Shown: piece by piece, positions 6,052 to 9,571 of the stretch
Layout of the letters: every line of letters begins with the position of its first letter
Position numbering within the stretch: position 1 is the stretch's first letter
Source: Microcaldota archaeon
GTDB lineage: Archaea > Micrarchaeota > Micrarchaeia > Micrarchaeales > CABMGC01
DNA length: 51,518 nucleotides
Reading direction: 5' to 3'
Assembly: GCA_021789155.1 (NCBI GenBank)
Contig: JAJYJW010000003.1
Coordinates: 1 to 51,518 of the forward strand
Translations under genes and position numbers: made by a program
Notes under the pieces: generated by a model
Seen by the model: the letters and a program-made list of their open reading frames with translations, nothing else
Databases searched by the model: none
Told to the model about the DNA's origin: nothing

Positions 6052-6167
6052 AAGACTATAACATATAGTTACTCACTAAAAGGTATAAAAAAGCTTCTAA
6101 TTACGCTGATTTGTAGATAAACTGCTTAACAAATGCTTATAAACTCTCATGGCCAAAAGCTAGATGT

Positions 6168-6256
6168 AGCTCCATCGTCTAGTGGTCACTTTTATAGCCA
6201 TAAAAGGACGGCAGGCTCTGGACCTGCAAACACCAGTCCGAATCTGGTTGGAGCTA
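6168..6256 (+). tRNA. tRNA-Gln (anticodon CUG) with 16-nt D-loop insertion (6189-6204)
   Basis: Acceptor AGCTCCA/TGGAGCT; anticodon stem GCAGG-CTCTGGA-CCTGC; T-arm ACCAG-TCCGAAT-CTGGT. Length 89 nt, 73 without the insertion. Aligns with the second tRNA-Gln at 9499. Confidence 0.88.
6189..6206 (+). other. hairpin insertion in tRNA D-loop (putative non-canonical intron)
   Basis: CTTTTAT-AGCC-ATAAAAG, perfect 7-bp stem, absent from the D-loop of the second tRNA-Gln. Confidence 0.75.
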
Positions 6257-6338: not shown

Positions 6339-6767
6339 TTGCTAGCCAAAAGCCAATACAAGGACCACGTGATAGTGTGTGGATATGGAATGGTCGGGGA
6401 AAGGATAGTCGAGATACTCCTTCAGGCAGGAATAAAGATTGTGGTGATAGAGATAGACAAGGCGAAGGGAGACATGCTGAAGGGCAGGGAACTTGACTTT
6501 CTCATTGGCGATGCTACTTCCTCTATGACTTTGAAAGCCGCGGGAATAGAAAAAGCGCAGGCGATAGCCGTAGTTATGGACGATGATGCAAAGAACCTGT
6601 TCGCGGTGATAACTGCGAAGAGCCTTAACCCGGACATATTGATAGCCACAAGGGCAAACAACGAGTTCATCAAGGGCAAGCTAATAGAGATAGGCGCGAA
6701 ATATGTCGCTACTCCGAATTATTCTACAAGCGAAGAGCTCCTCAGGGAAATAGAAAAGAAGGCATAG
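6339..6767 (+). CDS. TrkA-N (RCK/KTN) domain protein, soluble
   Basis: HVIVCGYGMVGERIVEILLQAGIKIVVIEID, LIGDATS, typical RCK N-domain; likely TTG start. Confidence 0.88.
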   Translation: MLAKSQYKDHVIVCGYGMVGERIVEILLQAGIKIVVIEIDKAKGDMLKGRELDFLIGDATSSMTLKAAGIEKAQAIAVVMDDDAKNLFAVITAKSLNPDILIATRANNEFIKGKLIEIGAKYVATPNYSTSEELLREIEKKA

Positions 6768-6774
6768 TGGGAAC

Positions 6775-7554
6775 ATGGCGGATCTGAACGAGGAAACGAG
6801 GAACGTTCTCATAACGTCGTTATTCCTTGGAATACTCATAATCTGCGTATCCCTAGTATCATTGTTCTTCCTCACGCGCAACTTCTATACTGATGCGTAT
6901 TATACCATTGAAACGTTTTTCGATGCGCCTAATACCGCAGCCTCTTTTGACCTTGCGGCATTGGCGTTTGGAAATGCGTCTTTGCCGCAATTCATAGGCA
7001 TAGTCGGAATAGTAATACTAGACAACTTAAGCAAGATAATGGTTATAAGCTTCGTTATTGCCGCAGTATTGGACATCATACGTTTTGCTAATGTCGAGGC
7101 GTTTCTGAACAGAATGCAGGTAAAAAAGCTCAATAGGCACATTATAGTCTGTGGATACAACGAATTCGCAGAGGAATTGGCAAGGAAGCTGGTCAGACGC
7201 GGCAGGAAGGTTGTGATAATAGACAGCAATCCTGAAACGCCATTGTCTGTGAATTCTTACAAGGCGATGGCGATAGTAGGAAATTTCGCGGAGCACAAAA
7301 TTCTAGAAAACGCCGGAGTAAAGAATGCGTCTGATGTTGTTTTTACATCTCAAAACGACATAGATAATTTGGTCGGCGCCATAACAGTAGGAAAAATGAA
7401 TCCGAAAGCGAAGTTATATTCGAGGGTTACGAATCCGGAAGTGAGAACGAAAATGTACAGGGTCGGGGTTTCGATGTGCGTGCTTCCGGAAGCACTTGCT
7501 GCACTTGACATTGGCGAAGCAATCGTAAGGTGGGTAAAGGTGAATAAAAGATGA
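6775..7554 (+). CDS. membrane-anchored TrkA-N/RCK domain protein (K+ channel-like, degenerate pore)
   Basis: Two TM segments flanking AYYTIETFFDAPNTAASFD; RCK domain HIIVCGYNEFAEELARKL. Confidence 0.85.
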   Translation: MADLNEETRNVLITSLFLGILIICVSLVSLFFLTRNFYTDAYYTIETFFDAPNTAASFDLAALAFGNASLPQFIGIVGIVILDNLSKIMVISFVIAAVLDIIRFANVEAFLNRMQVKKLNRHIIVCGYNEFAEELARKLVRRGRKVVIIDSNPETPLSVNSYKAMAIVGNFAEHKILENAGVKNASDVVFTSQNDIDNLVGAITVGKMNPKAKLYSRVTNPEVRTKMYRVGVSMCVLPEALAALDIGEAIVRWVKVNKR

Positions 7555-8279
7555 AATTCCGGGCAATTCAGAAGATATTGGTGCTGATTCTCGTTGCAAT
7601 ATTCGTAATATCGACCATAGCGGTTAAAGCGAGCGGCGAAACCACGTTCGTATCCGTATTCTGGAGCATAATGAATATGATTGGGGCAGACTTTCCTCCG
7701 ACCCAATCCCTAATTGATTCCAGAGACCCGCTAATACTATTTGCAGATGCGATAGGCGTGCAAGGAAAGCTCGTTTTCACAATATTGCTCACCACAATAT
7801 TCTACCAGCTTCTCGGAATGATAAACATACGGGACAAATTCAACCAGCACACAATACGCAATTTCAAAAAGCATACGATCGTTGTTCCAATGAACGACAT
7901 AGGCATAGAGATCGTTCGGTATTTCACTGCGCATGGGAAGCAAATAGTAGGCATGGATTCTAACCCAAGGCTATCAGCAAGGCTCAATAGAGAAGGGCTT
8001 CATACCGTATCTGGAGACCCCACAGAAACATACACGTTCAAGAAAGCCAATATAGCAAGCGCGAGCTCATTGATACTCGTTGATTATGCGGACATGAAGA
8101 ACGCACTCATAGCGTTAGACGCAAGGAAGATGAACAAGAAGATCTTCATAGCTTCAAGATTGATGCATCCGAATGACGTAGCGAGAATGGAAAAAGCAGG
8201 AATAAACAGAGTAATAATGAGCGACATAGCGGTGGGAGACAACATAGCAGAGTATTTAACCCAGAATATCAAACGTTGA
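7551..8279 (+). CDS. membrane-anchored TrkA-N/RCK-like protein (K+ channel-like, degenerate pore)
   Basis: ATGA overlap with the preceding gene; TM plus SVFWSIMNMIGADFPPTQS plus TM; degenerate Rossmann TIVVPMNDIGIEIVRYF. Confidence 0.83.
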   Translation: MKFRAIQKILVLILVAIFVISTIAVKASGETTFVSVFWSIMNMIGADFPPTQSLIDSRDPLILFADAIGVQGKLVFTILLTTIFYQLLGMINIRDKFNQHTIRNFKKHTIVVPMNDIGIEIVRYFTAHGKQIVGMDSNPRLSARLNREGLHTVSGDPTETYTFKKANIASASSLILVDYADMKNALIALDARKMNKKIFIASRLMHPNDVARMEKAGINRVIMSDIAVGDNIAEYLTQNIKR

Positions 8280-9498: not shown

Positions 9499-9571
9499 AG
9501 CCCCGTCGTCTAGTGGCCAAGGACCACGGGCTTTGGACCCGTGTACACCGGTTCGAATCCGGTCGGGGCTA
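9499..9571 (+). tRNA. tRNA-Gln (anticodon UUG)
   Basis: AGCCCCG/CGGGGCT acceptor, ACGGG-CTTTGGA-CCCGT anticodon arm, ACCGG-TTCGAAT-CCGGT T-arm. Confidence 0.96.

Follow-up and report, generated by a model that had tools for sequence, protein, structure and literature searches.

Noncanonical introns are known from archaeal tRNA genes at D-arm, T-arm and acceptor sites, where they are bounded by strict or relaxed bulge-helix-bulge (BHB) motifs (PMC6379350, PMC12397907, PMC8450103). Endonucleases (EndA) of the epsilon2 type cut introns of the BHL and hBH kinds at a range of tRNA sites (reviewed in PMC4033280 and PMC6379350), and the ARMAN-2 enzyme loses cleavage when alanine replaces its triad or its Tyr-Lys pair (PMC12397907). 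In the portions of this literature available to us, the substrates named for ARMAN-1 and ARMAN-2 are tRNA-Cys(GCA) and tRNA-Ile(UAU) (Fujishima 2011, via PMC4033280; PMC12397907). Caldiarchaeum carries a multi-intron tRNA[CUG], printed as tRNA-Glu[CUG], and D-arm introns have been reported in that genome (PMC3293823). For Thermoproteales, intron transposition among tRNA genes has been described (Fujishima 2010, via PMC4033280). D-loop introns and epsilon2-type EndA are already published, and the case reported here adds a further example.

The window analysed here (51,518 nt) is the entire contig C2 of its source genome (G000; 795,806 bp, approximately 90% complete). Its + strand carries, at positions 6168–6256, a tRNA-Gln(CUG) gene of 89 nt with a D-loop longer by 16 nt, the anticodon CTG (6218–6220, +) and a C at tRNA position 55 (6238, +) within a T-loop reading TCCGAAT (6237–6243). 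A sequence-only reading of the window had described the 89-nt gene and its 16 extra nucleotides in these terms, and its coordinates and sequence were confirmed. All four stems are fully paired in the cloverleaf parse (7/7, 4/4, 5/5, 5/5); an ordinary tRNA-Gln(UUG) at 9499–9571 (+) served as the comparison gene. By eye, a TATA-like box (CTTATAAA; 6136–6143, +) stands about 25–30 nt upstream, and most relatives have A/T-rich elements at a similar distance. Three adjoining ORFs just downstream of the tRNA (6339–8279) look TrkA-N/potassium-channel-type, and two long ORFs at the contig end (47048–51477) resemble coiled-coil proteins, again by eye. The unspliced gene was undetected by ARAGORN, including its intron modes, and scored 27.7 bits with Rfam against a cut-off of 29. 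After removal of the 16 nt, ARAGORN returned a perfect 73-nt tRNA-Gln(CTG).

The insert (ACTTTTATAGCCATAA) is best placed at 6188–6203 (+), between C20a and A20b of the D-loop and therefore at a site other than 37/38. The 5' exon (6168–6187, +) ends in AGTGGTC (C20a), the same as the D-loop of intronless relatives, and the 3' exon (6204–6256, +) starts with AAGGAC. Placement at 6189–6204 yields an identical spliced product; the earlier reading was right about 16 nt in the D-loop, and its boundaries are refined here. Gene anatomy, empty sites, a conserved and covarying exon–intron helix and the presence of EndA and RtcB genes make it very probable that the insert is a noncanonical D-loop intron removed by an epsilon2-type EndA. 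This minimal D-loop intron was one of two options originally proposed, and it is strongly supported by the empty sites, the insert lengths and the helix described below.

To follow the insert among relatives, 98 of them were searched at the DNA level and the genes parsed as cloverleafs; a pattern search then covered 164 genomes of the order Micrarchaeales, to which the source genome belongs. The tRNA-Gln(CUG) of relatives occurs in two states: in one the D-loop is uninterrupted (AGTGGTCAA), and in the other the same site holds an insert. On the question of conservation raised earlier, 32 of the 164 genomes have an insert at this site. The uninterrupted pattern was found in 96 genomes and both patterns in none, and reversed control patterns gave no match in the 164 genomes, so the insert matches exceed chance. 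Since no genome has both patterns, each of the 32 genomes was found to have tRNA-Gln(CUG) solely in its insert-bearing form; one of them (G246) has this gene twice. Insert lengths range from 16 to 31 nt, and the architecture is maintained across two families. The order contains Ca. Micrarchaeum, and Ca. Micrarchaeum sp. A_DKE has the insert too. Within genus g7, two genomes (G041 and G048) have a 19-nt insert and two (G006 and G030) have none, with identical Gln exons.

The same survey bears on whether the gene is a decaying pseudogene, with CAG being read by another tRNA or by wobble of tRNA-Gln(UUG). The Rfam score below threshold and the unusual C55 fit such decay, but every stem is perfectly paired, CAG is the majority glutamine codon (288 CAG vs 133 CAA), and the architecture has been kept across two families. 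An uninterrupted second Gln(CUG) gene, which the sequence-only reading had named, together with absence of the transcript, as a sign of a pseudogene, was found neither in the source genome nor in any of the 32 insert-bearing genomes, although a second gene could be missing from a source genome that is approximately 90% complete. We rejected C55 as evidence of decay, as it recurs across tRNAs of the source genome and of relatives. We regard a pseudogene as very unlikely.

The intron reading predicts a specific precursor structure. Exon GUGG (6182–6185, +; G15, U16 and the invariant G18–G19) would pair with intron CCAU (6198–6201, +) just 5' of the 3' splice site, with 4/4 pairs that are kept in relatives. 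This pairing would form a relaxed BHB with the 5' bulge UCA (6186–6188, +), the 3' bulge AAA(A) (6202–6205, +) and an almost absent inner stem. The cutting rule was taken from known BHB motifs. With this rule, predicted cuts at UC|A and AA|A join AGUGGUC to AAGGAC, which equals the intronless sequence, and AGUGGUCAAGGAC is restored exactly. The inner helix has only 2 bp in the source genome, which makes the motif a relaxed one of the bulge-helix-loop type, whereas most relatives have a strong inner stem and a strict BHB with two 3-nt bulges between outer and inner helices.

The predicted motif is conserved among inserts. Exon GUGG pairs with a four-letter intron segment (CCAU, CCAC, CCGU, CUAU and others) that ends two letters before the 3' splice site. 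In 26 distinct Micrarchaeota inserts, 95 of the 104 positions of this helix pair in register, compared with 24–76 at other offsets, even though several relatives have only 3/4 pairs. In the same inserts, an inner stem that begins one letter inside the intron has 102 of 104 pairs, whereas none of 2000 reshufflings exceeded 91. Covariation over 19 distinct BHB segments was 0.468, compared with 0.261 when shuffled (0/500 reached the observed value) and no more than 0.164 after sliding. Some Woesearchaeota combine exon GCGG with intron CCGU, a two-sided change from U-A to C-G in the exon–intron helix.

The other option proposed earlier was retention of the insert in the mature tRNA, where it would form an additional D-arm hairpin and change the tRNA elbow. 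The perfect 7-bp hairpin CTTTTAT-AGCC-ATAAAAG (6189–6206, +) does exist, and in an isolated RNA model it is slightly favoured (P about 0.6) over the central helix (about 0.4), with which it is incompatible; a stem is also present in the inserts of most relatives. The minimum-energy fold of the precursor (−31.4 kcal/mol) includes the central helix. The complete hairpin is confined to the source genome, and with only 1–5 of 7 pairs in the 25 other distinct inserts it is not a conserved structure; as a recognition motif it was ruled out. A retained arm is further opposed by close relatives whose exons are identical but whose site is precisely empty, by the matching endonuclease encoded in the source genome, and by the exon GUGG–intron pairing, which would occupy the G18–G19 required by the elbow. 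Retention of the insert is therefore very unlikely.

For the intron reading, the processing enzymes are encoded as well, including the broad-specificity EndA that the sequence-only reading had mentioned for some ultrasmall archaea. The EndA of the source genome (382 aa) matches the ARMAN-2 epsilon2 EndA (PDB 4fz2, 9w2k) over its full length (8.5e-126) and contains both endonuclease Pfam domains. Its catalytic Tyr/His/Lys are Y232, H246 and K277, and the Tyr-Lys of the specificity loop is Y156-K157. It is accordingly classified, from its sequence, as an epsilon2-type enzyme, a single three-unit chain with the triad and the Tyr-Lys loop. An RtcB gene is also present. We infer that this tRNA is cleaved and ligated in this organism: the epsilon2-type EndA, presumably homodimeric, would make the cuts UC|A and AA|A, after which the exons would probably be joined by RtcB to yield a standard 73-nt tRNA.

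Like other archaeal noncanonical introns, the insert is short, lies at a site other than 37/38, has an exon–intron central helix and bulged splice sites, and is accompanied by an EndA of matching type (PMC6379350, PMC12397907, PMC8450103); unlike them, it measures 16 nt, nearly lacks an inner stem and belongs to a site in one tRNA that recurs across an order. With the introns of ARMAN-1 and ARMAN-2 it shares the archaeal order, the EndA type and relaxed introns at various positions, as far as the accessible parts of the sources describe them (PMC4033280, PMC12397907). Caldiarchaeum (PMC3293823) foreshadows D-loop introns in a CUG tRNA: its tRNA[CUG] has the same anticodon, and related records show a D-loop insert. 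In our own reading, however, the Caldiarchaeum splice register is shifted by about 2 nt in the 3' direction and has a different helix, of the GGYC:GGCC type, and that tRNA has additional insertions beyond the D-loop. Inserts in the D-loop of tRNA-Gln(CUG) are widespread (Thaumarchaeota, Aigarchaeota, Bathyarchaeota, Aenigmatarchaeota, Woesearchaeota) and fall into two splice registers. Woesearchaeota share the register and plan of Micrarchaeota; a single origin of all these archaeal inserts is unsupported, as the register of Thaumarchaeota, Aigarchaeota and Bathyarchaeota is about 2 nt away.

Other tRNA genes of the source genome contain candidate introns with a plan similar to that of tRNA-Gln(CUG). 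These are candidate noncanonical D-loop introns in tRNA-Leu(UAA) and tRNA-Ser(GCU), candidate T-loop introns in tRNA-Arg(UCU), tRNA-Ala(GGC) and tRNA-His(GUG), and, less surely, T-loop introns in tRNA-Ser(GGA) and tRNA-Leu(CAA) (loci L241–L247 on contigs C25, C9, C27, C16, C17, C27 and C21). Their splice sites were assigned manually, and in several cases splicing there would not leave a loop of exactly 7 nt, so they are treated as leads. In the T-loop introns, the T-loop UYCR pairs with the intron (UUCG:CGAA, UUCA:UGAA, UCCG:CGGA). In tRNA-His (L246), the exon C55 is matched by an intron G (UCCG:CGGA), compared with UUCG:CGAA in others. As in Thermoproteales, several tRNAs of one genome have similar introns at homologous sites; the likeness among the introns of the source genome may come from their common pairing with invariant letters of the D- and T-loops and need no movement. 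Two tRNA-Pro(UGG) genes (L029 and L030; C20:9-82 and 706-779), identical over the matched stretch, lie about 700 bp apart at a contig end.

The U at tRNA position 55 is nearly universal, and Pus10 and TruB/Cbf5 are the known Psi55 synthases. The U55C change noted in the sequence-only reading is real but not peculiar to tRNA-Gln(CUG), since at least six other tRNAs of the source genome have C55. At least seven in all carry it: Thr(UGU), Ala(UGC), Thr(GGU), Val(CAC), Gln(CUG) and the intron-containing L023 and L027 (C55 loci L002, L004, L009, L016, L023, L027 and window position 6238). Ala(CGC) has G55 (the G55 locus is L014), and a letter other than U55 is thus found in at least eight tRNAs. 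Among the tRNA-Gln genes of relatives, C55 is scattered, with T55 in most insert-bearing genes and C55 in several intronless ones. Judged from these genes, U55C is independent of the insert, and C55 a separate trait.

Pus10 was not detected in the source genome nor in 97 of the 98 relatives. The one relative with Pus10 (G018) has two C55 among 30 tRNAs, so the link between C55 and Pus10 is a tendency. Using the T-arm core GGGTYCRAWTCCC as a proxy for C55 in 196 genomes of the phylum, we obtained 233 C55 matches among 2315 in Pus10-lacking genomes and 17 among 802 in Pus10-bearing genomes. C55 is approximately fivefold commoner in Pus10-lacking Micrarchaeota (Mann-Whitney p 6e-11, which overstates independence because the genomes are related). 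The trend is also seen in families outside the order (49/502 in Pus10-lacking vs 17/786 in Pus10-bearing genomes). A strict rule of C55 only without Pus10 was ruled out by at least one C55 match in 13 of 64 Pus10-bearing genomes. In three genomes (G107, G150, G197) the Pus10 ORFs contain in-frame stops, and the same genomes show C55.

The TruB_N domain of Cbf5/TruB was absent from the search of the source genome and found in 14 of 14 controls. In other families the Pus10 model also gave weak secondary matches, and these are Cbf5 (three of the proteins were read and two of them scanned). No such weak Cbf5-type match appeared in the scan of the 98 relatives, which hints at loss of Cbf5 throughout the order, suggested only indirectly. 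One genome of the order (G189) has an unexplained weak match to a different part of the Pus10 model. Cbf5 can form Psi55 in vitro, according to the part of the source available (PMC6138745). The source genome is without a detectable Psi55 synthase, its completeness of about 90% being a caveat. U55 is no longer strictly kept in this lineage, probably because the Psi55 enzymes are gone.

C55 could instead be corrected by C-to-U editing after transcription, an explanation that concerns the U55C part alone and is compatible with the intron. C8 of a tRNA undergoes such editing in Methanopyrus, and C55 occurs sporadically in tRNAs that are otherwise normal. The tRNA-His intron, however, has a G facing C55, which indicates that C55 is accommodated before splicing, and loss of Psi55 synthases is the simpler reason; we consider editing improbable. 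Our overall picture is more tentative than the intron itself, and we put it forward as a possibility somewhat short of even: Micrarchaeales may have lost the known Psi55 routes (Pus10 and probably Cbf5/TruB), with U55 of elongator tRNAs drifting to C in many of them, and short introns in the same genomes may take the invariant GG of the D-loop and UYCR of the T-loop as halves of splicing helices, C55 facing an intron G in tRNA-His. In the literature that could be searched, no text dealt with C55 in combination with the loss of Pus10 and Cbf5, which is limited evidence of novelty. The erosion of U55 with loss of Psi55 synthases and the pairing of introns with invariant D- and T-loop letters are the less-known aspects of this case.

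Standard gene finders overlook essential tRNA genes that carry introns of this type, as ARAGORN and Rfam did here, and the tRNA sets of ultrasmall archaea therefore appear falsely incomplete. Presence and absence at one site in congeners with identical exons provide a clean case for the gain or loss of a tRNA intron, and the C55 pattern and the missing Psi55 synthases together make a natural test of whether U55 is held fixed by Psi55.
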